Made by a program: the position numbers and the translations under genes
Assembly: GCF_000373925.1 (NCBI RefSeq)
Contig: NZ_KB892707.1
Coordinates: forward strand, 248,001 to 312,000
Length of the DNA stretch: 64,000 nt
Source of the DNA: Actinopolymorpha alba DSM 45243
Lineage (GTDB): Bacteria > Actinomycetota > Actinomycetes > Propionibacteriales > Actinopolymorphaceae
Reading direction: 5' to 3'
Notes under the pieces: generated by a model
Told to the model about the DNA's origin: nothing
The model's input: the letters and a program-made list of their open reading frames with translations, nothing else
The model's database searches: none
Part shown: in pieces, positions 3,618 through 20,522 of the stretch
How positions within the stretch are numbered: the first letter of the stretch is position 1
Layout of the letters: every line of letters starts with the position of its first letter

Positions 3618-5069
3618 TCACGGGCGGCCGCGCTCGAGAGCTCCGAGGAAGATCGGATTCGTGAAGGCCACCATCGGCTCGAACGGCGCGGGGACGTCGG
3701 GCATCCGGCGTACCTCCGCGCGGACGTACTTCGAGACGGCGGCGGTCGTCGTCCAGGACATGGTTCCGTCGCCGCTGTCAGGAAGGGCCAGCTGCGCCAG
3801 TGCTCCCTCGTCGGTGACGAAACGCACGAAACCACCCGGCACTCCGCGTACCGCCAACTCCACGCGTACCTCGTCGGACTCCGAGACGTCCAGGCGTTCA
3901 GCGATCCCCGCCGAGCGCCCGCCACCAGCCGCCGTGAACGCCAACTCGACCGCTGACGACTCCGTGACATAGCTGCGACCCGCCCGGACGCCCGCGAGGA
4001 TCGCGTCCCGGGTGAGGTCGTCCGCGAGCACCACCGTCTGCCCGAGCCCGATGGTCTGGCCGTCGTGGTGGGAGTCGCTGCTTCCGATCGCCGGCAGCCA
4101 GTGGCCGCCCGTCGCGACGAGCCCGGCGTCCCACTGGCGAAGTGACACCTCGTCGTCGGGGGTCCAAGGGCCGTTCCAGACCTCCACCGCGTCGAAGCCC
4201 TCGAAGCCGAACTTCCAGGCGCACCCCACGAAGGGACAGTACGGATGCGCGGCGATCGCGAGCGCGTCGTGCCGGTGGATCTCGTCGAGGACGCGGGGGA
4301 GTACGCCGTCCAGCGCGCGGTAACGCCAGTCGATCCAGGTGCCCGGCGGCAGGCCGGCCGCGACGAAGTGGCCGTTGCGGGTCGTGACCTCCTCGCCGTC
4401 GATGATCAGCAGGTCGTCGCGGGCATGCTGCCCCCAGATACCGGCGGCGGAGGGGGTGTTGTGTTCGGACGACACCATGAAGTCCAACCCGGCTGACCGC
4501 GCGGCGGCGACAACTTCCTCGGGTTGCCAGTGCCCGTCAGAGTGCACCGTGTGGAGGTGGAGGTCGCCGCGGTACCACGCCCGTCCCCGGCCATTCGCGC
4601 GTCGTGGCGCGTGGGAGGGTACGAACGCCCGCCCCGGTGTGCCCCGGTGCAGCGTCACCTCCAGGCGATACGCCAGTCCTTGTGGCGCGACGGTGTAGGG
4701 GCCCAGCAGGACGTGCCAGATGCCGGCGTTGACGGGACCCGGCAGGTATCCGGGCGTCGCGTGGGTGGCGCTGATGCTGAAGGAGTCGCGGGCACCACCC
4801 GACCAGCCGCGGAAGCCGGTCGTGGCGTCGAGGTCGTGGCCACGTTCGTCGAAGATGCCGATGTCGAGCACGTTGCCGGGTCGTCCCGGCGGCGGACTCG
4901 GGGTGTCGTAGCTGTAGCGGACGGAGATCTCACGGACTCCGGACGAGACCTCCACCGGTACGTACACCCAGTCCGGCGCGCCCGGCTCGATGCGGCCCTC
5001 GATGATCTGGACGTCCGTGGAAGAGGCGGGGTCGGGGGAGTCGCCGTGGTCGGCCGATGGGGGAGTCAC
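3618..5069 (-). CDS. CehA/McbA-like PHP-domain metallohydrolase
   Basis: A 483-residue two-part protein. The first ~160 residues are a beta-sandwich-like region; then comes a PHP-type metal site: YRGDLHLHTVHSDG (HxH), SSEHNTP, DGEEVTT, AIAAHPYCP and IGSSDSHHDGQ. These His/Asp/Glu residues are those that bind metals in CehA/McbA and related PHP phosphoesterases, which cleave esters, carbamates or phosphodiesters. No signal peptide is visible. The start is a GTG without a good ribosome site. It lies 102 bp behind the STAND/TPR gene on the same strand and may be transcribed with that operon, but nothing shows a shared function. Confidence 0.75.
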   Translation of the reverse strand: MTPPSADHGDSPDPASSTDVQIIEGRIEPGAPDWVYVPVEVSSGVREISVRYSYDTPSPPPGRPGNVLDIGIFDERGHDLDATTGFRGWSGGARDSFSISATHATPGYLPGPVNAGIWHVLLGPYTVAPQGLAYRLEVTLHRGTPGRAFVPSHAPRRANGRGRAWYRGDLHLHTVHSDGHWQPEEVVAAARSAGLDFMVSSEHNTPSAAGIWGQHARDDLLIIDGEEVTTRNGHFVAAGLPPGTWIDWRYRALDGVLPRVLDEIHRHDALAIAAHPYCPFVGCAWKFGFEGFDAVEVWNGPWTPDDEVSLRQWDAGLVATGGHWLPAIGSSDSHHDGQTIGLGQTVVLADDLTRDAILAGVRAGRSYVTESSAVELAFTAAGGGRSAGIAERLDVSESDEVRVELAVRGVPGGFVRFVTDEGALAQLALPDSGDGTMSWTTTAAVSKYVRAEVRRMPDVPAPFEPMVAFTNPIFLGALERGRP

Positions 5070-5171: not shown

Positions 5172-7946
5172 TCATCGCAGCCGCTGACCGAGCGCCGTGA
5201 TCAGCCGGGTGAGGAGCCGTTCCGGACGGCGTGACCGGGTGTCGGAGTCCCGGCGTGCCGGCAGGTCCTCCTCGAGCGGTTCGGGTGTCTGCTTGGCGCG
5301 GAAGCCGCGAGCCCGCGCCTCCCGCAGATACCGCTCGGTGAGGGAGGAGGCGCCGTGACCCGGGCGTAGCCGCTCCGCGCGCTCAAGCCAGGCCTGCGCG
5401 TGCTGGACGGCCGTCACCTGGTCGAGGGGCCGCCGCTGGTCCGCCAGGAGGAGGCCGGCCAGGTCCGGCGCGACGAGCACCGCGGATCCGAGGTGCTGCA
5501 GGCACCGTGCCTCACCATGCTGGTCGGCGAGTTCGGCGAACCGCGTCCAGGCCCGCTGCCACATCGCGACGGCCACCGGCGCACGTCCCTGCATCCACGC
5601 GGCGATCCCACGGAGTTCGGTCACGTGCGCCTCGCCCGCGGTGTCGTTACTTTCCTGTGCACGGGTTTCGGCGAGATCCAGCCGGTCGAGCGCGCGATCG
5701 GGCTGGCCCTGGCGGAGGTAGACCACGGCCATCGACAACAGGGTCGTGACCTCGCCGGCGATGTCCTTACGCGGAAGCCGCACCCAGGTGCGTTGCAGCG
5801 CGCGCTCGGCTTCGGCGAGTTCGGTGCCCGCGGCCGTGGGATTGTCGGCATGTTCGGCTCGGGCCAGGCGGAGGAGCGCCTGCTCGTGATGGTGGCGAGC
5901 GCGCAAAGCCCAGCTGGTCCGGTCGGGGCGGCGGCGCAGGCCAGCGACCTTATGGAGGGTGTGCTGGGCCCCGTCATGGTCCCCAGCCGCGCGACGGACC
6001 GCGGCGAGCCTGGTCGCGGCCAGTCGCCGGAGATCGGGTCGGTCCGTGTCCTCCGCGAACGCCACCATCATGGCGTGCACGAGGTCGGCCCCGAACGTCT
6101 GGTGCTGCCTGACGTACCACCTGTCGAGCGCGTCCGCCAGACGGGCGAGGTCGTCGAGCATCAGCGGAAGGAGCGGACCTTTGCGGTCGTCGGTGGCCTG
6201 CGCGGTGTAGTCGACGGTGGCCAGGGCACGCAGCGGGGGCTCCTCCGTCTGGAACCAGCGCCGTGCCGACACCGCGTGTGTCGCGTCGTCGAGCAGCATC
6301 ACCCACCGGTCGGCGAGATCGGCGTACCGCTGGACGAGGGACGGGAGGGCCGCGCGTACGGCGGTACGGCGGTCCTCCGGGAACTCGGTGCGGGCGACCG
6401 CTCGCCGGACCTCCGCCGGCATGCGGTAGCGACCCACGCTCGAGGTGCGTACGACGCTCCGGAGTCCGAGTTCCTGGAGCGGATCGATGACGTCGACGTC
6501 GGGTGGCCTGGCTGGTTCCTCGGGGGCGGTGCCGTCGGGTTGGTCGAGGGACTCGGCCAGGTCGTCGAGTCCGTGGCGGACCGCCTCCATCGCCTCGACC
6601 GTGAGTTCGGCGACGGGTAGGTCGGCGAGTGCCCGCGCGAGCAGGCGCGCCTTCCTCGACATGCTGTCGCGGGTACGCCAGAGGATCGCCTCCCAGACCC
6701 GCTCCATCGGATCGACGCCAGGACTCGTCCGCGCCAGAAAGTCGCGCAGCTCGAGCGGCGTCCAGTGACTGCCCGGTCGGGTCACCTCGCGGGCAAGGTC
6801 GTGCACCGCGCCCGGCCGACCGCCGCAGACCGTGAGGACGTCGCCCAGCCACTGATTGGTGGAGCTCGTCCACTCCACGGAGGTGGACGCGTCGTCGGCC
6901 GCGGCCTGCGACCGGTCCGTATGCGCGTTGAGCTGGTCCCGCCAGATCCGGTGGAGTTCAGCAGGTGCGAGGTCGTCCAGCTCCACGGACCCGCCGGGGA
7001 ACGCGGCTCCGACGCCCGGCCCGCCCGCGACGACGAGGAGCGGGTGGTTGCCGGCTTTCGTCCACTCCTGGATCAGCCAGGCGACCTGTTCCGGGCGCGC
7101 GACGTTGTCGAGGACGAGTACGGCGGGTGGTTCCGACAGCTTCTGGAGCAGCCGGCGGGCCGCCGCGGCCAGGGCAGGTGGGTCCTCGCCGGATGGCTCG
7201 GCCGATTGGTACACCGCGAGCAGCATGGCGGCGATGGTCGGCCCGTCGTCCGGGGACAGCGTCGACCAGCCTCTGAGGTCGAACGGCGCGGTCCTGGCCT
7301 GTTCCGCGTGTCCTTGGGCGATGAGATTGTGCACCACCGCCGCGACGACGGCGGAACTCCCGCTTCCGGGCGGACCGGTGACCGCGACGGCACCGTTGCT
7401 GAGCACCAGGTCGACGGCCCGGCGTACCGCGTCGTCACGGCCATGGAGCGCCGGCCTCGCGCGAAACCACGACGGGCGTACGGGCGGGCCGGGCGCGACC
7501 AGGTCGGCGTCCAGGTCACGGGCGTCGCCACGGCGGTGCGCCAGGTAGCGGCCGACGCCCCAGATGACGAGGAGGAGCGCGAAGATCGCGATCCCCAGGA
7601 CGTTGAGGAGCTGGTTGATCGGGCCGAGGTACTCGCTGCCGCTGAGGACGCCCGCCAGCAGGTCGGAGGCGAGACCGCTGAGGAAGATGCCGGCCAGCGC
7701 GGCGCCACCGACGAAGGCGTTGCGCACGATGCCTGACCGGGGTTCGATGAGGACCCGTGCGGCCGGTGGCGCCGCTGGCGGCGGGGTGCGCTGCTGCGCC
7801 AGCGGCGGCGGTCCGGGCATTGCACCTGTTCCGGGCGCCGGAGCGGTCGGCCCTCCGGGCGGCGCGGCGGGTGTGGTGGGCGTCGCCGGTCCTGTCGGTG
7901 CGGTTGCCGGCGAAGCGTCCGGCGCAGGGTCATTGGGCGCGCTCAC
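5172..7946 (-). CDS. Membrane-anchored STAND/NB-ARC-like protein with TPR tail; P-loop lacks its lysine
   Basis: A 924-residue protein. Residues 1-70 are rich in Pro/Ala; membrane segments lie at about 76-101 and 112-134; a nucleotide-binding domain starts near 165. The P-loop at 191-198 reads GPPGSGSS, with Ser where Walker A has Lys (codon AGT, clearly read). The Walker B strand is AVLVLDNVA (275-283). The C-terminal half is helical and TPR-like. The GTG start has GGAGG nine bases upstream, and its GTGA overlaps the permease stop, so it is the last gene of a coupled operon. NB-ARC/STAND proteins are usually ATP-driven switches; this one looks nucleotide-hydrolysis-deficient. A role in regulating or assembling the transporter is inference. 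Confidence 0.72.
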   Translation of the reverse strand: MSAPNDPAPDASPATAPTGPATPTTPAAPPGGPTAPAPGTGAMPGPPPLAQQRTPPPAAPPAARVLIEPRSGIVRNAFVGGAALAGIFLSGLASDLLAGVLSGSEYLGPINQLLNVLGIAIFALLLVIWGVGRYLAHRRGDARDLDADLVAPGPPVRPSWFRARPALHGRDDAVRRAVDLVLSNGAVAVTGPPGSGSSAVVAAVVHNLIAQGHAEQARTAPFDLRGWSTLSPDDGPTIAAMLLAVYQSAEPSGEDPPALAAAARRLLQKLSEPPAVLVLDNVARPEQVAWLIQEWTKAGNHPLLVVAGGPGVGAAFPGGSVELDDLAPAELHRIWRDQLNAHTDRSQAAADDASTSVEWTSSTNQWLGDVLTVCGGRPGAVHDLAREVTRPGSHWTPLELRDFLARTSPGVDPMERVWEAILWRTRDSMSRKARLLARALADLPVAELTVEAMEAVRHGLDDLAESLDQPDGTAPEEPARPPDVDVIDPLQELGLRSVVRTSSVGRYRMPAEVRRAVARTEFPEDRRTAVRAALPSLVQRYADLADRWVMLLDDATHAVSARRWFQTEEPPLRALATVDYTAQATDDRKGPLLPLMLDDLARLADALDRWYVRQHQTFGADLVHAMMVAFAEDTDRPDLRRLAATRLAAVRRAAGDHDGAQHTLHKVAGLRRRPDRTSWALRARHHHEQALLRLARAEHADNPTAAGTELAEAERALQRTWVRLPRKDIAGEVTTLLSMAVVYLRQGQPDRALDRLDLAETRAQESNDTAGEAHVTELRGIAAWMQGRAPVAVAMWQRAWTRFAELADQHGEARCLQHLGSAVLVAPDLAGLLLADQRRPLDQVTAVQHAQAWLERAERLRPGHGASSLTERYLREARARGFRAKQTPEPLEEDLPARRDSDTRSRRPERLLTRLITALGQRLR

Positions 7947-9715
7947 CTGAGGAGTCCTCCGGTCAGTCCCGGCACCACCCAGCGCCGCCATGTGCCGAGC
8001 AGGACGACGACAGGAACGAGGCCCGAGAGGAGCGCACTCGCGGCCACCGTGCCGGCCGAGGCGGAGAACTGCCGGGCCTCGCCCCACAGCACCAGGGTCA
8101 GCGGGCTCGATCCGGGCCCGCTGATGAAGAAGCTGATCACGAAGTCGTTCCAGACCGAGACGAACTCCAGAACTGCCATGGCGACCAGGGCCGGTCCGGC
8201 GCGATCCCAGATCCGCCGGAGTCCGGTGAGCGGGCCGGTCTGCCCGAGCAGCGCGTCGAGCGCCGGTCTGTCGGGCGCCGAGATGAGGGCGGCCCGTACG
8301 ACCAGGACGGCCAGGGGGAGCCCGGCCGCCGCGTGAACGACGATCAACGGCAAACGCGAACCAGCCAGGCCGAGGGCGGTGAAAGCCTCCCGCAGGGGTA
8401 CGACGTACATCTGCACCGGAGCGACCGACAGCACGGTGAGGAACGCGACCAGGACCTTCGCGACCTGGGACGGCACCGTGATCGCGAGCGCGGGCGCCGC
8501 GAAGACGGTCACCACCACGAGGACGGCGGTGGCGCCGAGGGCGACCGCCAGCGTGGAGGCGAGCGAGCTGACCAGGCCGGCGGCGGAGACCTGGCGGATC
8601 GATTCGAAGGACAGGCCGTCAACGCCGGCGTTCCACCAGCCGACGGCCCCCGCGTCTGACGGGCTGTGCAGCGCGGTGGCGACGAGCACGAGGACGGGGA
8701 ACGCCCACAGCAGGCAGACGACGAAGCCGACCACGACGCTCCAGCGGCGGGCCCGGGGACGTCCCGGCGGGTCCGCGCGCCGCCACCACGGAGGGGTCTT
8801 GGGTACGCGGCGCGGACGCCCCATGGCCCGGCTCAAGAGCAGAGCCAAGGCGGCCAGTCCGCAGAACAACGCCACCGCGAGGGCCGCCGGCCGGCCCGGA
8901 TCGACGGACTTGGCGGTGAGGCGCCACCAGTGCAACGCGACGGTGTCCACCTCGTCCTGCATGGGTCCCGGTGTGGCGATGAGGACGAGGTCGAAGAGCC
9001 GGGCGGCCGCGACCACCAGGGTGAGGAGGATGATCCCGCCGACCGGTTTCAGCAGGCCTACGATGGCCCAGAGTCGCGGACCGGCACTCTTCTCGACCAG
9101 GGCGCGGCGCAGGACGTCCTCGGGGACCGTCCGTAGGCCGGCACGGAACAACGAGACCGCGAAGCCGAGCCAGCTCCACGCGAACGCCGACACGAGGACG
9201 AACCAGATCAGGGTCGGGCCGAGCCAGACCGGCGGGCTTTGGTTGAAGACCGCGGTCACAATCGCGCTCACGGTGCCGCGTTCGGGCGTCGGGTCGAAGA
9301 TCAGGCGGAACGCCGCTCCCGAGGCAAGGGCCGACGCGCCAAAGGGCAGCACCAGGATCCCCATGAACGCGAGCCACCAGCGCTCGACCCGCCGGCTCAT
9401 CACCGCGAGCCAGAAGGCGATGATCACCAGTGCGGCCACGACCGCCACCCAGACGGCGGTGTGGAGGAGCGCCCGCGACGACGCCTGGTCGGTGACGATC
9501 GCGACGAAGTTTCCGAGGCCGTACCACTCCTCAGAGCGGAACGCCCAGATCGTCGTACGGACCATCGGGGCGACGAGCAGCACCAGCACCATGGCGGCCG
9601 GAAGACTGAGGAGGTATCTGAGGATCCGCCGTGGCGGCCCGCCCGACACGAGCCGTCCGCTCATCGCCCGGCCGGTGACTTCGAGGCGCAGGCCGCGGTG
9701 CGTCTCAAGAGCCAT
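7943..9715 (-). CDS. Fused two-domain ABC transporter permease (MalF-MalG-like)
   Basis: A 590-residue polytopic membrane protein, about twice the length of one CUT1 sugar permease. The N-terminal half (RYLLSLPAAMVLVLLVAPMV onward) resembles a MalF-type permease. A basic, proline-rich linker near residue 305 (RRVPKTPPWWRRADPPGRP) leads to a MalG-type half that begins VVVGFVVCLLWAFPVLVLVA. Both halves carry several hydrophobic helices. I do not see clear EAA coupling loops, which normally contact the ATPase; the nearest candidates, RRALVEKSAGP and LDALLGQTGPL, are weak. ATG 9715 has GGGAG five bases upstream and overlaps the end of the binding-protein gene by 11 bp. Confidence 0.78.
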   Translation of the reverse strand: MALETHRGLRLEVTGRAMSGRLVSGGPPRRILRYLLSLPAAMVLVLLVAPMVRTTIWAFRSEEWYGLGNFVAIVTDQASSRALLHTAVWVAVVAALVIIAFWLAVMSRRVERWWLAFMGILVLPFGASALASGAAFRLIFDPTPERGTVSAIVTAVFNQSPPVWLGPTLIWFVLVSAFAWSWLGFAVSLFRAGLRTVPEDVLRRALVEKSAGPRLWAIVGLLKPVGGIILLTLVVAAARLFDLVLIATPGPMQDEVDTVALHWWRLTAKSVDPGRPAALAVALFCGLAALALLLSRAMGRPRRVPKTPPWWRRADPPGRPRARRWSVVVGFVVCLLWAFPVLVLVATALHSPSDAGAVGWWNAGVDGLSFESIRQVSAAGLVSSLASTLAVALGATAVLVVVTVFAAPALAITVPSQVAKVLVAFLTVLSVAPVQMYVVPLREAFTALGLAGSRLPLIVVHAAAGLPLAVLVVRAALISAPDRPALDALLGQTGPLTGLRRIWDRAGPALVAMAVLEFVSVWNDFVISFFISGPGSSPLTLVLWGEARQFSASAGTVAASALLSGLVPVVVLLGTWRRWVVPGLTGGLLR

Positions 9716-11198
9716 CAGGGCTCCCGCCGTCGCAGCCGTTGATTCCCCGCGCGCGCTGGCTCCGCACCAGATCGCGGCGCTCCACCTCGCGGGCGTTGTC
9801 GCCGGACTGCGCGTCCTCGACGGCGAGAAGCGCCTTGATCGCACGGTCGGTGGCGGCCTCGATCCGCTCGGCGTGCCCGTCACCAACCTCCGCGAGGAAG
9901 TCCTGCAACACCCGAAAGAGCCCTTCGCTGGATCCCACCGCGCCCAACTGGTCGGCGAGGTCGAAGTGGAACGGCATTGTGTGGACCTGCCGCGCGAACG
10001 GCTCGATCTCCTTGGAGTAGCCGTCCTGGGAGGCTCGGAGGTCGGCGGCGATGAAGCCGCCGGCCCGCATCCATTCCAGCGGTGCGGACGGATTCGCGAG
10101 CCTCGCCAGCAGGTCCTTCGCCTGCTCGCTGGCGGGACGGGTCAGAACCATCACATCGCCGCCGGCCACGAGCGGCTGGCCGCAGTCGAGCGCGGGGAAG
10201 GCGAAGATGCCGACGTCGTCGGAGGCCCGCCGTCGACTCAGGTCGAAGCGGTCGACGATGGGTTCGGCGAAGTCGGGCGCGACCACCATGGCGGCCCGGT
10301 GGTAGCGGAAGACCTCGAGCACCGCGTCTGGGAACTGCTGTACCAGTGACTTACGCACCCCGCCGGCCAGGGCGCGAGACGGTGCCCACATTTGCCCGAG
10401 CAGCTGGAAGGCGGCCCGCACGTCCGCGGTGTCCCAGGGGCGCGGTGCGCTCGCCGCGCTGAGCTGGTCGTAGGCGCTGGGCGAGTGTCCGAGCAGGACG
10501 TTCTCGAAGAAGCCGGTGAGCATCCACCCGTCAGCGCCGCCGAGCGCGAGCGGCGCCACACCCGACTCGATCAGCTTCGCGTTGATCCCGAGCCAGTCCT
10601 GCCACGTCTCCGGAGGGCTGAGCCGGTGGCGTTTGAACAGATCCGTGCGATACCAGACCAGCGACTTGTGCGCGAGCTTGAACGGCAGTCCGTACGGGAG
10701 GGTCTCGCCCGTCCGAGGGTTGCGGTGGAACAGCAGCGACCGCCAGCCCGCGGAGTATCGCGGCTGACCGCCCTCCTCTTGCCAGAGGCCAGGCGACAGA
10801 GGTTGCAGCGAGTCCAAGCTCTCGCCGACCAGACCCGGGCGCGGGAGCATGACGAGGTCGAGTCGGCCCGCGCCACGCCCGGTGAGCGCGTAGGAGATGT
10901 CGTCTCCCAGCGGGACCAGATCGACCCGGTAGTTCCGCTTCTTGAAGCCAGGAAGGGAGTCCAGCCGGCCGAGGACCCGCCGGAACGCCGCGAGCTCGTC
11001 GGCGCTCCAGCTCACCGCGACCTTGACGCCCGGCCCCGGATTCACCAGGTCGGTGGCGAGCGAGCAGCCGGGCAGGCTGGCGGCGAGGGGGAGGAGCGCC
11101 GCGCCGCGCAGGAGGGTACGCCGACTGCTGCCGGGTGTGGCGCGGCCCGCGTCCGGAGAGCTGGTCCCGGGAGGTCGTGGGTCAACCAACGGGCACAC
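9705..11198 (-). CDS. ABC transporter substrate-binding lipoprotein (family 1, sugar type)
   Basis: A 497-residue lipoprotein in the form chosen here. A twin-arginine SRRTLLRG, a hydrophobic stretch and the lipobox LPGC (Cys near 45) predict Tat export and lipid anchoring. The mature part is a family 1 (MalE/CUT1) binding protein: YGLPFKLAHKSLVWYRTDLF, PPETWQDWL, and GGADGWMLTGFFENVLLG are its typical landmarks. Starts are uncertain: GTG at 11198 overlaps the upstream gene by 17 bp; TTG at 11189 would also work. Neither has a strong ribosome site, fitting coupling. The ligand is unknown. Confidence 0.82.
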   Translation of the reverse strand: MCPLVDPRPPGTSSPDAGRATPGSSRRTLLRGAALLPLAASLPGCSLATDLVNPGPGVKVAVSWSADELAAFRRVLGRLDSLPGFKKRNYRVDLVPLGDDISYALTGRGAGRLDLVMLPRPGLVGESLDSLQPLSPGLWQEEGGQPRYSAGWRSLLFHRNPRTGETLPYGLPFKLAHKSLVWYRTDLFKRHRLSPPETWQDWLGINAKLIESGVAPLALGGADGWMLTGFFENVLLGHSPSAYDQLSAASAPRPWDTADVRAAFQLLGQMWAPSRALAGGVRKSLVQQFPDAVLEVFRYHRAAMVVAPDFAEPIVDRFDLSRRRASDDVGIFAFPALDCGQPLVAGGDVMVLTRPASEQAKDLLARLANPSAPLEWMRAGGFIAADLRASQDGYSKEIEPFARQVHTMPFHFDLADQLGAVGSSEGLFRVLQDFLAEVGDGHAERIEAATDRAIKALLAVEDAQSGDNAREVERRDLVRSQRARGINGCDGGSPDGS

Positions 11199-11922
11199 CG
11201 CCGCGACCGGACGCCTTGCCGAGCCCTTCGATGCCCTGCGGCTCGAGCCCGATCGGGTCGTCGTCGAGCTCCCGGGCCCGGGCGGCGTCGGTGGTGATGA
11301 GGAGGACAGCCACGTCGGTGAAGAGCGCGGAAGGATCCGCGGACGCCGCCAGGCCGAGCCGCCGGCGCCGCAGGTCGAGTACGGCGTCCCAGGTGGGCAG
11401 GCCCGCGGCGTCTTCGAGGACGACGGCACTGGGCTCCCAGCCCAGGGCGAGCGCGAGACCGGCGAGCCGGCGTTCGGTCGGGTCGAGGTCTTCGGGACAC
11501 GCGTCGAGCAGGCCCAACAGTCCGCACGAGGAAGCGATTTCCGAGACCATCGCCGCGGCGAGCGGCTGCGAGATCCGCGCGGTTGGGCACTGCGCGTGCA
11601 GCATGTTGCCGAGGAGCGCGAGCTCGGGCATCAGGCCGCCGCTCGCCGGGACCAACCGGATCCGGCAGTGCTTGCTACCGCGCTTGGTCAACCGGTGGCG
11701 CCGCCTCCGCCGGTGGTCGGTGTGCTGTTCGCCGACATGCGTGTCGTCGACGAGGACCATCCCGCGGGCGGGTTTCGTCAACCCCACAACGGCGTTCGCC
11801 AAGTCGTGGACGGCCTGCTGGTGACGCACGATGGCGGCGCGTACGGTGCCCGCGGGTACGTCGAGATCCAGCGTCGTACACACACCAGCGACGGTGAAGT
11901 CATCCAGTCGCAAGCCGACCAT
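11182..11922 (-). CDS. Degenerate ABC-type ATPase without Walker A or signature motif
   Basis: A 246-residue protein whose layout follows an ABC ATPase but whose catalytic motifs are gone. The Walker A place reads AAIVRHQQAVHDLANAVVGL, with no glycine-lysine loop; the signature place reads LDPTERRLAGLALALG rather than LSGGQ; the Walker B place reads AVVLEDAAGL. The surrounding pattern (VGLTKPARGMVLVDD, then LALALGWEPSAVVLED) is what supports an ABC origin. ATG 11922 has GGGAG four to five bases upstream. It is the first gene of the operon with a binding protein, fused permease and STAND protein. It is not a random frame: codon use is as GC-biased as its neighbours. Confidence 0.62.
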   Translation of the reverse strand: MVGLRLDDFTVAGVCTTLDLDVPAGTVRAAIVRHQQAVHDLANAVVGLTKPARGMVLVDDTHVGEQHTDHRRRRRHRLTKRGSKHCRIRLVPASGGLMPELALLGNMLHAQCPTARISQPLAAAMVSEIASSCGLLGLLDACPEDLDPTERRLAGLALALGWEPSAVVLEDAAGLPTWDAVLDLRRRRLGLAASADPSALFTDVAVLLITTDAARARELDDDPIGLEPQGIEGLGKASGRGGVPVG

Positions 11923-12515: not shown

Positions 12516-13982
12516 CTACCCGAACGCCACCGGCGTGAGGTCGGGGTCCGCGAGGTCGGCGTCCAGCGGATGCACCGGGCGGACGACGTGTTGGTACTCA
12601 AGCGCGCCGAGGTCCTGGTTGACACCGCCCGGTGTGAGCGCCAGCACCCAACCCTTCGCCGCCTGGTAGAGGTCGGGCTGGAGGTAGCCGATCTTGACCG
12701 CTGTCAGGTCGTGCTTGGCCGGGTCGAGGCCGAGGGCTTCCAGTCCGGAGACGTAGTGGAAGGGCTTGCGCCGGCTGGTGAGCACCGCCGAGACTCCGCC
12801 GGACCTGACGACGGCGATGTCGCCGCCCACCGCGTCGTCACGCTCGACATGGGTGACCCGTCCGGTGAGGGTCACCGGGTCGCCGCCACCGAAGACGCCG
12901 CCTACCTCGACGGTCACCTCACCACCAACGCCGGCCTCCACGCAGGTCCGCACCGCCTCCGGCGCGACGCAGCTGGCCCAGATGGCCGTGCGTTCTCCGG
13001 ACGCCAGGGCCGGCGTGGCGAGCAGTTCTCCGAGCAACCAGCCGACGTCGTTGGATCCGCCTGCGGTGGGGTTGTCGCCGGAGTCGCTGACGAAGAACGG
13101 CCGCTGGTCGGACTCGAAGGCCTCCGCGATGCACCAGTCAGCCGGACCGGTGGGCGCACAGAACTCGAAGCCGTTGCGGGCCTCCCACCAGGCGCGAGCG
13201 ATCCGGTTGGCCTGCGCCGTCACGACCTCGCGGTCGGTGCCTGAGACGACGACGGTGGCGGCGGAACGGGGCTCGTCAGCCCAGGCGTACCCGACCCAGA
13301 GCGCGGCGTCCAGCACGCCGGGCAGGCGTTCGGTCTCCTCCAGCGAGGCGTAGATCGACTGCGCAGGCTCGACCCGGGTGCTGGTCTTCTCACCAGGCAG
13401 GAGCACCGGCACGCGTACCCACGCCCGCACCGGACGGATGCCCTCGGTGAGGCAGTGGACGAGGTTGCGGACGGCCCGCTCACGGGTCTCGACGTAGTCG
13501 ATGTGCGGCGCCGTGCGGAACGCCGTGAGCAGGTCGAGGGTGCTGACGAGGTCACGGGAGACCTGACCGTGCAGGTCCATCGACGCTGACATGAGGCAGT
13601 CGGGGCCGACCAGCTCGCGGATCTTCGCCGCGAGCCCAGCTTCGGCGTCCCGCCGCCCGTCCACGGCCATCGCACCGTGGATGTCGAAGTAGAACCCGTC
13701 GAACGGCGCCTCGGCCTGCGCCGCGCGCAGCCGGTCGAGAATTTCCGTCTCGAGCGCGTCATAGGTCTCGGGAAGCACCTGCCCACCGGGGAGTGCCGAG
13801 GCCTGGAGCAGCGGAACGAACTCGACGTCCGGCTGACCGGGCAGGTGCCAGTCGGTCAGGAACGGATAGCGGTCGGTGAGGTCCGTACCCCGGACGACCC
13901 GGAAGTCGTCCAGCGCGGTCCGGTGCGGTGCGAACGTGCTTGATTCGGTAGAGATCCCAGCGATGCCGATGCGGTAGGTCAT
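12516..13982 (-). CDS. M81 family metallopeptidase (MlrC-like)
   Basis: A 488-residue protein of the M81/MlrC family, named for microcystinase C. N-terminal RIGIAGISTESSTFAP, the metal-site region FDGFYFDIHGAMAVDG near residue 95, SASMDLHGQVS, and the C-terminal-domain motif DSGDNPTAGGSND near 300 are all present. Many family members lie in sugar or amide catabolic operons rather than in toxin degradation. Here it is 60 bp behind the lactonase-like amidohydrolase, on the same strand, so it is likely part of the fucose-type operon. Its substrate is unknown. Confidence 0.85.
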   Translation of the reverse strand: MTYRIGIAGISTESSTFAPHRTALDDFRVVRGTDLTDRYPFLTDWHLPGQPDVEFVPLLQASALPGGQVLPETYDALETEILDRLRAAQAEAPFDGFYFDIHGAMAVDGRRDAEAGLAAKIRELVGPDCLMSASMDLHGQVSRDLVSTLDLLTAFRTAPHIDYVETRERAVRNLVHCLTEGIRPVRAWVRVPVLLPGEKTSTRVEPAQSIYASLEETERLPGVLDAALWVGYAWADEPRSAATVVVSGTDREVVTAQANRIARAWWEARNGFEFCAPTGPADWCIAEAFESDQRPFFVSDSGDNPTAGGSNDVGWLLGELLATPALASGERTAIWASCVAPEAVRTCVEAGVGGEVTVEVGGVFGGGDPVTLTGRVTHVERDDAVGGDIAVVRSGGVSAVLTSRRKPFHYVSGLEALGLDPAKHDLTAVKIGYLQPDLYQAAKGWVLALTPGGVNQDLGALEYQHVVRPVHPLDADLADPDLTPVAFG

Positions 13983-14042
13983 GGGCGGAGTTCTACACCA
14001 GGGATGTTTCGGTACGACATCGAGTTGGGCCGCGGGGCTCGC

Positions 14043-14939
14043 TCAGGGGAGGGCGTAGAACCGCCGGGCGGTGCCGCCGAAGATCGACGCGCGTTCGGTG
14101 GTCGTGAGGTGGGCGGTGAGTTCCTCCGCGGCCATTGTCCAGTCGCCGTACGACGAGGCGAGCAGGCAGACTGGCCAGTCGGATCCGAACATCACCCGGT
14201 CGGGCCCGAACGCCTCGAGGACGACGTCGACATACGGGCGCAGGCTCGCGACGTCCCAGGTGGCCCAGTCGGCTTCGGTGACGAGGCCGGACAGCTTGCA
14301 GCTGACGTTCGGGTGGCCCGCGAGGGTCCGGATCTGGTCCGCCCATGGCGCAAGCTCTCCGCGCGCGATCGCCGGCTTGGAGCAGTGGTCGAGGACGAAC
14401 GACGTCTCCGGCAGGTCGGCGACCGTCGCCTGGACGGCGGGCAGCTGGACCGGGATGGTGAGGAGTTCGTACCGGAGTCCGGCATCGGTCACCGCCCGCA
14501 GGCCGCGACGGACGTCAGGGCGGCAGAGCCAGGCGGGATCGTCCTCGCTTTGGACGCCGTGGCGGATGGCGCGGAGGTGGTCACCGCCCGGCGCTTCGGC
14601 GAGCGCCGCCAGGTCCTCGGCAACCGACGCGGAGGTGAGGTCGACCCATCCGGTGACGGCACCCACCAGGTCGCTGGCGGCGGCGAGTGCCAGGAACTCC
14701 CGCGTCTCCGCGATCTCACCCAGGGTCTGGACGAGGACGGTGCTGGTGATCCCGGCCGCCTGAACGTGGGGTGCGAGGTCGGTGAGCCCGAAGCTGCGGT
14801 TGATCGGTGCCATCGCCGCGCCGGTGATCCACGGCTCGGCCCGGACCGTGAGGTCCCAGACGTGATGATGGGCGTCGACCCGGGCCGGTGCGAGTTCGCT
14901 GGCGTTGCCGGGCGTACCGGATCCGGGCTCAGTGGCCAT
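14043..14939 (-). CDS. Amidohydrolase, probable L-fucono-lactonase
   Basis: A 298-residue TIM-barrel amidohydrolase (amidohydrolase 2 family). The N-terminal VDAHHHVWDL supplies the HxH pair; FVLDHCSKP near residue 180 and VMFGSDWPVCLL near 250 give the other His and Asp of the site. This arrangement is that of sugar lactonases such as L-fucono- and L-rhamnono-lactonase. Its start overlaps the aldo/keto reductase stop by 11 bp, and the divergent gene encodes L-fuconate dehydratase, so hydrolysis of L-fucono-1,5-lactone to L-fuconate is the most economical reading. The exact sugar is inferred from the dehydratase. Confidence 0.82.
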   Translation of the reverse strand: MATEPGSGTPGNASELAPARVDAHHHVWDLTVRAEPWITGAAMAPINRSFGLTDLAPHVQAAGITSTVLVQTLGEIAETREFLALAAASDLVGAVTGWVDLTSASVAEDLAALAEAPGGDHLRAIRHGVQSEDDPAWLCRPDVRRGLRAVTDAGLRYELLTIPVQLPAVQATVADLPETSFVLDHCSKPAIARGELAPWADQIRTLAGHPNVSCKLSGLVTEADWATWDVASLRPYVDVVLEAFGPDRVMFGSDWPVCLLASSYGDWTMAAEELTAHLTTTERASIFGGTARRFYALP

Positions 14940-15906
14940 AGCGGTGCACCCCTGCTGCGGCTAGCTCGTCCCAGAGCGTGTCGGGGATGGCGTACTCCAT
15001 CATCGCGAGGTTCTCGTCCAGCTCCGCGACACTCCGGGCGCCGGTGAGGATGGTGGCGACCGCGGGGTGCGCGAGCGGGAACTGGATGGCCGCCGCCTTG
15101 AGCGGAACGCCGTGCTCCGCACAGATGTCGGCGAGCTTCTGCGCCTGCGCGACCAGCTCCGCCGGAGCCTCGACGTAGTTGAACGTCGCGCCCGGGCGCG
15201 GGTCCGCGAGGAGGCCGGAGTTGTAGACGCCACCGATCACGATCGAGGTGCCCCGGTCGAGGCAGGCGGGTAGGAGGTCGGCCTCACCCGACTGGTCGAG
15301 CAGGGTGTAGCGGCCGGCAAGGAGTACCGCGTCGATCTCGGTCTCCCTGACGAACCTCGTGGGTATCCGCGACTGGTTCATGCCGACACCGATCGCTCCG
15401 ACGACGCCCTGTGCGCGCAGCTCGTGGAGGACGGGGTAGGCGGTGGTGAGCGCCGCCTCCTCGTGGTCGTCGGGGTCGTGGATGTAGACGATGTCGACCG
15501 CGTCCATGCCGAGGCGTTCCAGGCTCTCCTCCAGCGACCGCCGGATCCCGTCAGCGGTGTAGTCGTAGATCGCCTCCGACGGTGGCGCGTCGGCGTAGCC
15601 GTCGGACGCACCGTCGGGGTTGTCCACGATCAGCCGGCCCACCTTGGTCGAGAGCGCGTACGACGAGCGGCCGGCATCGGCCAGCGCGGCGCCCACCCGG
15701 CGCTCGGAGACGCCGTGGCCGTAGAGCGGTGCCGTGTCCACGTAGGTGAGGCCCGCGTCGAGCGACGCCTGGACCACCGCGGCGGCCACGTCGTCCTCGA
15801 CGTGGGTGAAGAGACCACCCAACGGCGCCGTACCAAGGCCAAGGCGGGTGACCTCGACGTCGCTTCGACCCAGCCGGTGCCGCTGGGTGGACCGTGGAAA
15901 CGTCAT
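14929..15906 (-). CDS. Aldo/keto reductase, probable L-fucose (D-threo-aldose) 1-dehydrogenase
   Basis: A 325-residue NAD(P)-dependent aldo/keto reductase. The catalytic tetrad is visible: YVDTAPLYGHG (Asp and Tyr), LSTKVGRL (Lys) and IVYIHDPDD (His). The length and LGLGTAPLGGLF start fit the subgroup of L-fucose/D-threo-aldose and L-galactose dehydrogenases. It would oxidise L-fucose at C1 to the lactone, which the overlapping amidohydrolase would open. ATG 15906 faces the L-fuconate dehydratase gene across 243 bp, so the two operons probably share a regulatory region. Confidence 0.83.
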   Translation of the reverse strand: MTFPRSTQRHRLGRSDVEVTRLGLGTAPLGGLFTHVEDDVAAAVVQASLDAGLTYVDTAPLYGHGVSERRVGAALADAGRSSYALSTKVGRLIVDNPDGASDGYADAPPSEAIYDYTADGIRRSLEESLERLGMDAVDIVYIHDPDDHEEAALTTAYPVLHELRAQGVVGAIGVGMNQSRIPTRFVRETEIDAVLLAGRYTLLDQSGEADLLPACLDRGTSIVIGGVYNSGLLADPRPGATFNYVEAPAELVAQAQKLADICAEHGVPLKAAAIQFPLAHPAVATILTGARSVAELDENLAMMEYAIPDTLWDELAAAGVHRYGH

Positions 15907-16149
15907 GCGAGATCCTCTCGGCTTGGTGGCACGCTAGGGGGTGGTGGGGCGTGGCGAAGCCGCGCTGGGGGCGGAACGCTGACACCGGATCCTAGTGTCC
16001 GCCACGGCTGGCCCATTTTGTCCACCGCGGCCTCGAAGGGGTCCGGGACCGGCGACACTGGGTGGGCATCCAGAGGGTTGTGATGCGTACGCCGATCGCA
16101 GCCCGCCGTGCTGTGTCGCGCACTCCAGCTTGCGCTCGAAGGAGACCGA
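15907..16149. promoter_or_regulatory. Divergent control region of the fucose-type genes, with candidate operator
   Basis: The gap between the divergent aldo/keto reductase and dehydratase genes holds a 19-bp interrupted palindrome at 15981-15999: GACAC, nine central bases and GTGTC. It is well placed to control both directions. No regulator gene is in this part of the window, and I found no clear -35/-10 pair. The operator is a guess from symmetry and position. Confidence 0.35.
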
Positions 16150-17445
16150 GTGACGAAAGTCGTTGCAGTCGACGTCCATGACGTGCGGTTCCCTACGTCC
16201 TTGGGTCTGCATGGTTCGGACGCCATGAACCCCGACCCTGACTATTCCGCGGCGTACGTCGTGCTCCGGACCAGTGACGGTCCGGAGGGGCACGGCTTCG
16301 CGTTCACCATCGGACGGGGGAACGAGGTCCAGTGCGCGGCGATCCGCGCGCTCGCTCCGGCCCTGGTCGGGCGGGACGTCGAGGCGATCTGCGGCGACTT
16401 CGGCAGCGTCTACCACGAACTCGTCTACGACTCGCAGTTTCGCTGGCTTGGCCCCGAGAAGGGCATCATGCACATGGCGATCGGGGCGGTCGTCAACGCG
16501 GTCTGGGACCTTGCCGCCAAGCGCGCCGGCAAGCCGGTCTGGAAGCTGCTGGCCGACATGACGCCGGACGAGATCGTCGGGTTGGTCGACTGGCGCTACC
16601 TGAGTGACGCGCTGACCCCCGACGAGGCGCTCGACCTGCTCAAGAAGGCCGAACCCGGTCGCGCCGACCGTGAACGCCGGCTCCGCGCCGAGGGGTTGGC
16701 GGCGTACACCACCACACCGGGCTGGTTGGGGTACGACGACGCGACCGCCGAGCGGCTGGCCCGGGAGGCCGTCGCGCAGGGATTCCGGCAGATCAAGCTC
16801 AAGGTGGGCCACAACCTCGACGACGACCGCCGCCGGCTGGCGGTGGCGCGCAAGGCCGTGGGACCGGAGATCCGGATCGCCGTCGATGCCAACCAGTGCT
16901 GGGACGTCGCCGACGCCGTGTCCTGGGTGGGGCAGCTGCGGGAGTTCGACCCGTGGTGGGTCGAGGAACCCACCTCACCTGACGACGTGCTCGGCCACCG
17001 CGCCATCCGGGACGGCATCGCGCCGATCAAGGTCGCGACCGGCGAGCACGCCCAGAACCGCGTCGTCGTCAAGCAGCTGTTGCAGGCGGGGGCGATCGAC
17101 ATCCTCCAGCTGGACGCGGCCCGGGTCGGTGGCGTCAACGAGAACGTCGCCATCCTGTTGCTGGCCGCGAAGTTCGGCGTACCCGTATGTCCGCACGCGG
17201 GTGGAGTCGGGCTCTGCGAGATGGTGCGGCACCTCGCGATGTTCGACGAGGTGGCGGTGGCGGGCCACACACCGGACCGGGTCGTGGAATTCGCCGATCA
17301 CCTGCATGAGTACTTCGTCGACCCGGCGGTGATCCGGAACGGCGCGTACGTCGCGCCGGACGTGCCGGGGTTCTCGGCGCAGATGCGGCCCGAGGCGCTG
17401 GAGCGGTTCCGCTTCCCCGACGGCCCTGCCTGGTCTGGTTCCTGA
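16150..17445 (+). CDS. fucD: L-fuconate dehydratase (enolase superfamily)
   Basis: A 431-residue enolase-superfamily acid-sugar dehydratase that turns L-fuconate into 2-keto-3-deoxy-L-fuconate. The N-terminal run [22 protein letters not shown] and [14 protein letters not shown] is close to a signature of FucD. In the barrel, IKLKVG supplies the catalytic Lys, [15 protein letters not shown] and ATGEHAQNR supply metal ligands, and [11 protein letters not shown] the His. GTG 16150 is chosen because AAGGAG lies five bases before it; an upstream ATG at 16108 lacks this and would add residues foreign to the family. The later steps of the pathway (dehydrogenase/aldolase) are not in the window. Confidence 0.93.
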
Positions 17446-18461: not shown

Positions 18462-19463
18462 GTGCGAATCGCGGTCACCGGATCGATTGCCACCGACCAT
18501 CTCATGACGTTCGACGGCAAGTTCCGCGACTCCCTGGTTGTTGACCAGCTCGACAAGATCTCGCTGTCCTTCCTGGTCGAGGAACTCGAGGTGCGGCGCG
18601 GCGGCTGTGCGGCCAACATCGCCTTCGGCATGGCCTGCCTCGGCCTGCGGCCGGTGCTCGTCGGCGCCGTGGGCCAGGACTTCGACGACTACCGCGCGTG
18701 GTTGGAACGCCACGGCGTCGACTGTGACAGCATCCACGTCTCCGAGCTCAAGCACACGGCGCGGTTCGTGTGTACGACGGACTCGACGCACGCCCAGATC
18801 GCGACCTTCTACACCGGTGCGATGGCCGAGGCCCGTCAGATCGAGCTGGCTCCGGTCGCGGCCCGGATGGGCGGGCTCGACCTGGTGGTGGTCGGCCCCA
18901 ACGATCCGGCGGCGATGGTCCGGCACACCGAGGAGTGCCAGAGCAAGGGGTACGCCTTCGCCGCGGACCCGTCCCAGCAGCTCGCCTGGTCCGATGGTGA
19001 CCTGATCCGGTCGCTCCTCGACGGTGCGACGTACTTCTTCTCGAATGAGTACGAAGCCGCTCTGACAGAGCAGAAGACCGGCTGGTCCGCCGACGAGATC
19101 CTCTCCCGCGTCCAGGTCCGTATCACCACACTGGGTGCCAAGGGGGTCCGTATCGACCGCAAGGGGGAGCCGCCGATCCAGGTTGGCTGCCCGCCTGAGG
19201 AGCGCAAGGCTGATCCGACCGGCGTCGGCGACGGCTTCCGGGCCGGCTTCCTCGCGGGGATCGGCTGGGGCCTCAGCATGGAGCGGGCGGCACAGGTGGG
19301 ATGTCTGCTCGCGACCCACGTCATCGAGACGACGGGGACGCAGGAGTACGCCCTCCTGCCGGCGACGTTCCTGACCCGCCTGGCACAGGCGTACGGCGAC
19401 AGTGCGGCGACCGACGTCGAGGCCCTCCTGCTCCACCGGCCGGCCGAGCCGGAGCTCGGGTAG
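18462..19463 (+). CDS. adoK: Adenosine kinase (PfkB family, actinobacterial type)
   Basis: A 333-residue PfkB-fold kinase that phosphorylates adenosine to AMP. It matches the mycobacterial adenosine kinase from end to end: AVTGSIATDHLM at the start, LSFLVEEL, RRGGCAANIAFGMA, TARFVCTTD, AADPSQQLAW, and the catalytic DPTGVGDGFRAGFL (Asp base near residue 255). GTG 18462 has GAAGGG eight bases upstream. This gene lies next to ctaC in mycobacteria as well, so synteny supports the call. The final 15 residues (EALLLHRPAEPELG) run past the usual end. Confidence 0.88.
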   Translation: MRIAVTGSIATDHLMTFDGKFRDSLVVDQLDKISLSFLVEELEVRRGGCAANIAFGMACLGLRPVLVGAVGQDFDDYRAWLERHGVDCDSIHVSELKHTARFVCTTDSTHAQIATFYTGAMAEARQIELAPVAARMGGLDLVVVGPNDPAAMVRHTEECQSKGYAFAADPSQQLAWSDGDLIRSLLDGATYFFSNEYEAALTEQKTGWSADEILSRVQVRITTLGAKGVRIDRKGEPPIQVGCPPEERKADPTGVGDGFRAGFLAGIGWGLSMERAAQVGCLLATHVIETTGTQEYALLPATFLTRLAQAYGDSAATDVEALLLHRPAEPELG

Positions 19464-19637
19464 GGCTGTGGGCACGCCCGAGGGCGCGACGCGCCGCACC
19501 CGCCGTGCGGTGGGGTGCGTCACCGAGCCGGGGAGTCCTCCGAGTAGGGTTCTGTCGCTGATACGAGGTTGCATCGCGGTCCGCCGGACAGTCCCGACTG
19601 TCGGTGACGTGCGGGTCCGAAGGGAGAAAGGCATCCC

Positions 19638-20522
19638 GTGAGGTCGAACGCTGGCGAACGCTCGCCACGCCGTGTCCTACGCAGGGCCTCCGTGGCGTCT
19701 CTTGCGGGGTTCGTGGTGCTGCTGGCGAGCGGGTGCTCCGCCCAGGAGCTTGATACGTGGAAGCGTGTCGGCATGCCGCCCCCGGCCAGTGACCGGGCCA
19801 CCCACACGCTGAGCCTGTGGCAGGGAGCCTGGATCGCCGCGCTGGCCGTCGGCGTGCTCGTGTGGGGACTCATCATCTGGGCGGTCATCGCCTACCGCCG
19901 CCGTGACGACTCGGTCCCGCCCCAGACGCGCTACCACCTGCCGATCGAGATCCTCTACTCCGCGGTCCCGTTTGTCATCATCGCGGTGCTCTTCTACTTC
20001 ACGATCCGCGACCAGAACGCCATCCTGAAGGTCGACAAGGAGCACCCGCCGGCCAACGTCGTCAACGTCATCGGCCAGCAGTGGAGCTGGACCTTCAACT
20101 ACCTCGAGAACCCCGAGGTCGGCACCACGGTCTGGGAGACCGGGACGCCTGGGGAGCTCCCGACGCTCTATCTCCCGGTCGGTGAGAAGGTCGGGTTCAA
20201 GCTGAACTCCCCGGATGTCATCCACTCGTTCTTCGTCCCGGCGTTCCTGTTCAAGCTGGACGTCATTCCGGGCAAGGAAAACTACTTCGAGCTCACCCCC
20301 ACCAAGGAGGGCGAGTTCGCCGGCAAGTGTGCGGAGCTGTGTGGCGTACTCCACTCGCGGATGCTCTTCACGGTGCACGTGGTGAGCAAGCAGGAGTACA
20401 TCGCCCACCTCAGGGAGCTCAAGGCCAAGGGACAGACCGGTGAGGTCACCGGAGGCGCGCATTCGACGACCCAGCAGGGCCTCGAATCCGGGAGCCGTGC
20501 TGCTGAGGGAGTGACCAAGTGA
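19638..20522 (+). CDS. ctaC: Cytochrome c oxidase subunit II (CtaC)
   Basis: A 294-residue lipoprotein subunit of the aa3 oxidase. A signal peptide ends in the lipobox LASGC (Cys 32); two membrane helices follow at about residues 58-88 and 100-125. The extracytoplasmic cupredoxin domain carries the complete CuA site: DVIHSFFVP (His), then [12 protein letters not shown] (Cys, Cys, His, Met). QQWSWTFNY is the usual aromatic electron-entry region. GTG 19638 follows AGGGAGAAAGG. Its stop overlaps the ctaD GTG by four bases. The C-terminal 35 residues are a polar tail. Confidence 0.96.

Follow-up and report, generated by a model that had tools for sequence, protein, structure and literature searches.

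Four overlapping genes in the window (the whole 64,000-nucleotide stretch analysed here) form a cassette in which the ATP motifs have been lost from both nucleotide-binding proteins. The defining feature of ABC importers is their ATPase, and an importer depends on ATP hydrolysis that is coupled through the EAA loops. The explanation that we favour, with about even confidence, is that a CUT1 importer has given rise to a receptor complex that works without ATP and has a TPR protein as its read-out; the cassette would then probably sense something extracellular rather than import it, in some soil actinobacteria. The fuller proposal, in which a whole importer and a STAND/TPR protein are kept as one heritable unit with every ATP site lost, and in which the conformation of the permease of this ATP-free receptor is passed to a TPR scaffold, is one that we hold more tentatively, at a little under even confidence. 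If true, it would be a route from pump to receptor, with ATP sites lost in two NTPase folds and domains absent in some lineages. With the cassette it also becomes testable whether signalling by a permease can do without transport, as has been asked for Pst and MalK. No description of an ATP-dead importer or a related system was found in the open-access literature, and automated annotation presumably calls these genes an ordinary sugar transporter.

The four genes of the cassette are as follows:

11182..11922, minus strand: pseudo-NBD, a MalK-like ABC protein of 246 aa without ATP-binding motifs
9705..11189, minus strand: solute-binding lipoprotein (SBP_bac_1), 494 aa, TTG start, RR signal and lipobox Cys42
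7943..9715, minus strand: fused MalF-MalG-type permease, 590 aa, N half SugA-like and C half SugB-like
5172..7946, minus strand: two-TM protein with an AfsR-like pseudo-NTPase domain and C-terminal TPR, 924 aa, GTG start

The description given in the first-pass annotation, of four overlapping minus-strand genes with intact frames, holds. All four frames are open (GC3 0.84-0.89, computed for the permease, SBP and NTPase/TPR frames), and the stop of each gene overlaps the start of the next, at the SBP TTG (11189), the permease ATG (9715) and the NTPase-TPR GTG (7946). These three true starts lie downstream of the longest-ORF starts, and the overlaps of 4-11 bases between neighbouring genes fit translational coupling. 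A motif scan found no G....GK[ST] in any of the four window cassette proteins. Single-sequence Pfam searches with the window proteins returned no ABC and no permease match, so that profiles were required, and PADLOC found no defence system in the window.

By homology, the ABC-like protein is clearly MalK-like in ancestry. A profile built from 20 orthologues retrieves MalK-type ATPases in the PDB (best E 3.8e-21), and 18 of the 20 match PF00005 individually (the window protein alone has no Pfam match). The remnants of its motifs were placed by alignment of the orthologues and, for Walker A and Walker B, by alignment to MalK:

11806..11832, minus strand: place of the Walker A loop, IVRHQQAVH, residues 31-39
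11473..11487, minus strand: degenerate signature, LDPTE (LTVGQ or ITPGR in relatives)
11410..11427, minus strand: degenerate Walker B and catalytic Glu, AVVLED

The Walker A lysine is found in none of the 20 orthologues, whose loop aligns to that of MalK with unrelated residues, and all of the nearest outside NBDs in the class-level genomes carry it, mostly as GPSGSGKST. The earlier claim that this protein has neither Walker A nor LSGGQ is thus borne out, the signature stretch in the window reading LDPTERR. Walker B reads VVLEDA, with an E170-D171 pair that is invariant in the orthologues versus D-E in MalK. The Q-loop glutamine is alanine in nearly all members (VPA versus VFQ), and the H-switch, ITTD in the window, has threonine for histidine in all members except the most distant one. 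The segment following the Q-loop (VPA.GGLLPHLTVLGN) is the best conserved of those measured, with a mean pairwise identity of 0.73 against 0.41 for the whole protein and 0.41 for the Walker A loop. We take this segment, from its position in MalK, to lie at the TMD interface. A TMD-interface position for the post-Q-loop segment has been described, at residues 81-87 (PMC8603345). Since this TMD-contact segment is the most conserved, docking appears to have been kept and catalysis not. Within what appears from its clade label to be a sister genus (g5), the ABC-like protein is down to about 184 aa. An AF2 model of the pseudo-NBD from one sequence was discarded (pLDDT 38).

The second nucleotide-binding protein has an NTPase domain that aligns with AfsR (8k60, 1.8e-10), followed by TPR, and it contains these features:

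7353..7376, minus strand: P-loop GPPGSGSS with Ser for Lys, from the alignment of copies
7554..7712, minus strand: two predicted TM segments, residues 79-97 and 113-131, from hydropathy

The substitution of serine for the P-loop lysine, reported in the first-pass annotation, recurs as Ser or Thr in all nine readable copies, that is, eight aligned copies and locus L041, where GAPRMGTS was read in frame ahead of a frameshift. This frameshift in the NTPase-TPR gene of one relative (G006) lies at about 8690, just past the P-loop region, and is either real or an assembly error. Homologous operons were also searched for copies that keep GKS/T, which would speak against the loss; none has it, a statement that covers 20 ABC-like and 9 NTPase sequences. 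Walker B (LDN) is retained in the NTPase domain. In the window's family, the NTPase domain has a dN/dS of 0.36-0.47 and the TPR part one of 0.16-0.25, and the sister-genus TPR protein (430-448 aa) consists of the two-TM region and TPR without the NTPase domain. Searches of the TPR protein with Pfam and NCBIfam found no DNA-binding, kinase or other effector domain.

The permease matches SugA in its first half (7.1e-18) and SugB in its second (1.7e-23), both by profile, and the motifs through which an NBD would be coupled are lost at both places:

9044..9130, minus strand: site of the first EAA coupling loop, which has lost the motif
8192..8275, minus strand: site of the second EAA coupling loop, which has lost the motif

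The EAA...G pattern is present in none of 21 permeases, whereas CUT1 controls keep it (EAAALDGAG, DAARIDGAG, DAAKVDGAG). Conservation of the two loops (0.46 and 0.41) is below the permease average of 0.55, which is the reverse of what we would expect of working importers. In the permease of Actinophytocola oryzae, both coupling loops are shortened. In most members the first (F-half) loop is of unchanged length, and a partial EGV.GW is seen in the sister genus, from which it seems that some NBD could still dock. Residues 1-25 of the permease form a conserved cytosolic peptide ahead of TM1 (NGLSLEVVGRE.SGRPVPG in the sister genus).

The main rival explanation is a functional importer that a multitask ATPase of the MalK/MsiK type drives in trans, either by itself or together with the pseudo-NBD as a degenerate half, with the TPR protein as an assembly or regulatory factor. 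The first-pass annotation had left the choice between a sugar-binding sensor and a borrowed ATPase, and had supposed that importers normally need two active ATPase sites; taken as a rule that always holds, this premise is too strong. In favour of such an importer, the genome encodes at least six ATPases that match OB_MalK above the cut-off. It is established that multitask ATPases can serve importers whose operon has no NBD gene (PMC7658222); in M. tuberculosis, UspABC comes without an NBD (PMC8603345). The binding protein and TMDs of the cassette are, besides, well conserved. The absence of the EAA motif from every permease argues against an ATPase acting in trans, as do the shortened loops in A. 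oryzae, although not decisively, because the length of the first loop is kept in most members. A dedicated and conserved dead NBD would, moreover, fill the docking site, and the loss of lysine from the NTPase domain would be left unexplained. We therefore regard a borrowed ATPase as rather unlikely, though it is the strongest of the competing explanations, and favour the sensor, in which the word "sugar" comes from binding-protein homology only.

Two further explanations are less likely. Were the cassette an ATP-independent facilitator or channel gated by its binding protein, a ligand would move down its gradient while the pseudo-NBD fixes one conformation. This would suit the greater conservation of the TMD regions than of the coupling loops and the maintenance of dead NBDs under selection. 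The TPR protein, though every member has one, would be left unexplained, and we know of no CUT1 permease that is an ATP-independent facilitator; we consider this explanation improbable. The other is a scaffold without signalling, in which, for example, the TPR protein holds a cell-envelope enzyme and the binding protein tethers a wall polymer. A lipoprotein and a TPR scaffold are indeed found in all members, and no regulator is encoded nearby, but the binding protein does not look like a pure tether, for which its several invariant tryptophans and many other invariant positions would be needless. This option we judge slightly more improbable still.

The binding protein matches PF01547 (7.8e-13) and 3zkk (2.2e-16). 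Its nearest solved relative is a xylo-oligosaccharide-binding protein, which suggests that its own ligand is perhaps an oligosaccharide. The genomic context of the cassette differs between clades and yields no ligand or pathway.

The distribution of the cassette suggests joint inheritance of its genes. Six of the seven other genomes of the window's family have the same cassette, followed by a PHP gene. Across 197 order-level genomes, a permease orthologue (E below 1e-140; next match 1.8e-27) is found in 39, the window's own included, and 32 of the 39 are from the sister genus. In a class-level sample of 395 genomes the cassette permease occurs in only three beyond the window's own. A. oryzae also has the cassette permease, along with the dead NTPase. 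Two distant genomes (G523 and G297) have only the binding protein, the permease and the TM-TPR protein, the NTPase domain being missing, and no ABC gene was seen upstream of the binding protein in these two or in A. oryzae (loci L091, L092 and L039). Since the NTPase domain, the ABC gene or both are absent in some lineages, the constant core of the cassette appears to be the binding protein, the permease and the TM-TPR protein, with the two dead nucleotide-binding modules as the parts that may be missing.

Among 18 sister-genus genomes, the ABC-like gene and the permease are both present in 12 and both absent in 6, and all four cassette genes are jointly present or absent at one site. In the six empty-site genomes, a methyltransferase gene directly adjoins radA, where the others hold the cassette. 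Presence and absence mapped on the flanking-gene tree require five changes by parsimony, at least four of them on supported branches, which indicates that the four genes come and go as one unit. The sister-genus site (L046-L057, L131-L136) is flanked by the methyltransferase gene and radA, and a FabH-like gene and disA lie downstream of it.

Pairwise dN/dS for all four genes is 0.04-0.41, values that point to purifying selection on all of them. Because the same losses recur in all orthologues under such constraint, neither chance nor decay accounts for them, as the first-pass annotation had anticipated in setting simple decay aside. Sequencing error or decaying pseudogenes, for which the frameshift in one relative might be cited, are hardly credible when copies in different genomes, 20 of the ABC-like protein and 9 of the NTPase, all lack the same residues and the frames are open.

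The genes on either side of the cassette in the window are:

3618..5069, minus strand: CehA/McbA-type PHP metallohydrolase, starting about 100 bases past the cassette
12516-13982, upstream of the cassette: M81 metallopeptidase
14043-14939, upstream of the cassette: amidohydrolase
14929-15906, upstream of the cassette: aldo/keto reductase
16108-17445, upstream of the cassette: enolase-superfamily (MR/MLE) gene

Outside the window's own family, the PHP gene does not follow the cassette. It was rejected as a fifth core partner, having close relatives in cassette-less genomes (G007, G057, G040, G055) and not following the cassette in the sister genus. A second copy, 53% identical, is present in the same genome (G000:C66:1419-2825) and in relatives. 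The genes at 12516-17445 look like a 6-deoxy-sugar (L-fuconate-type) catabolic set and are mostly syntenic in the window's family; here 593 bases separate the M81 gene from the ABC gene, against 80-240 in relatives. Because their synteny is confined to one family, these genes were not taken as a pointer to the ligand. Further along, at 18462-20522, are a PfkB-type kinase and then cytochrome c oxidase subunit II (COX2), and more genes on that strand come after these.

In the receptor that we favour, a CUT1 importer of the MalEFGK/SugABC type would have been turned into an ATP-independent complex. The lipoprotein would bind an extracellular ligand, probably an oligosaccharide, and dock on the fused permease, which would change shape. 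The pseudo-NBD and the membrane-anchored NTPase-like/TPR protein would form the cytosolic read-out and relay the change to a partner. Ligand binding outside may thus give a conformational signal inside, since the hydrolysing residues and the EAA motif are gone and the binding protein, the membrane part, the docking face of the NBD and the TPR are kept. The sequences themselves give the parts and their homology, the lost ATP and EAA motifs, the purifying selection and the joint gain or loss of the four genes, whereas the single complex, the lack of transport, the signalling and the ligand class are what we infer. The receptor would most likely be analogous to MalK-MalT and Pst signalling: the activator MalT, a STAND/TPR protein, is bound directly by the MalK dimer (MalK2; PMC6468293), and transport-dead PstB mutants still signal (PMC5775613). 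Against it count that no DNA-binding or kinase output domain was found in the TPR protein, that the genomic context points to no ligand or pathway, that some NBD could still dock at the F-half loop, and that at least six MalK-type ATPases of the genome could serve the permease.

Several known systems share parts of this arrangement. With LpqY-SugABC and MalEFGK2 the cassette shares a binding lipoprotein, MalF/MalG-type TMDs and a MalK-like NBD fold. It differs from them in lacking the Walker A lysine, the signature, the Walker B aspartate, the H-switch histidine and the EAA motifs, and in having fused TMDs, no MalK OB domain and an extra TM-NTPase-TPR protein. Importers served by multitask ATPases (MsiK, MsmX; UspABC) likewise have an operon without a functional NBD and MalK-type ATPases elsewhere in the genome, whereas the cassette in most members has its own conserved pseudo-NBD, has lost EAA and is linked to a TPR protein. 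PstSCAB-PhoU/PhoR offers a precedent for importer conformation as a signal, as proposed here, but Pst has an active ATPase and an identified kinase, both of which are missing in the cassette. The actinobacterial STAND/TPR regulator AfsR has the same succession of an NTPase domain and TPR, but the cassette protein has Ser or Thr for the P-loop lysine, two TM segments and no SARP DNA-binding domain. Finally, although the NTPase protein differs from MalT in being membrane-anchored, encoded in the same operon and without the P-loop lysine or a DNA-binding domain that we could find, the cassette, like the MalT-MalK inhibition module, brings together a MalK-type protein and a STAND-like TPR protein in the context of sugar transport.
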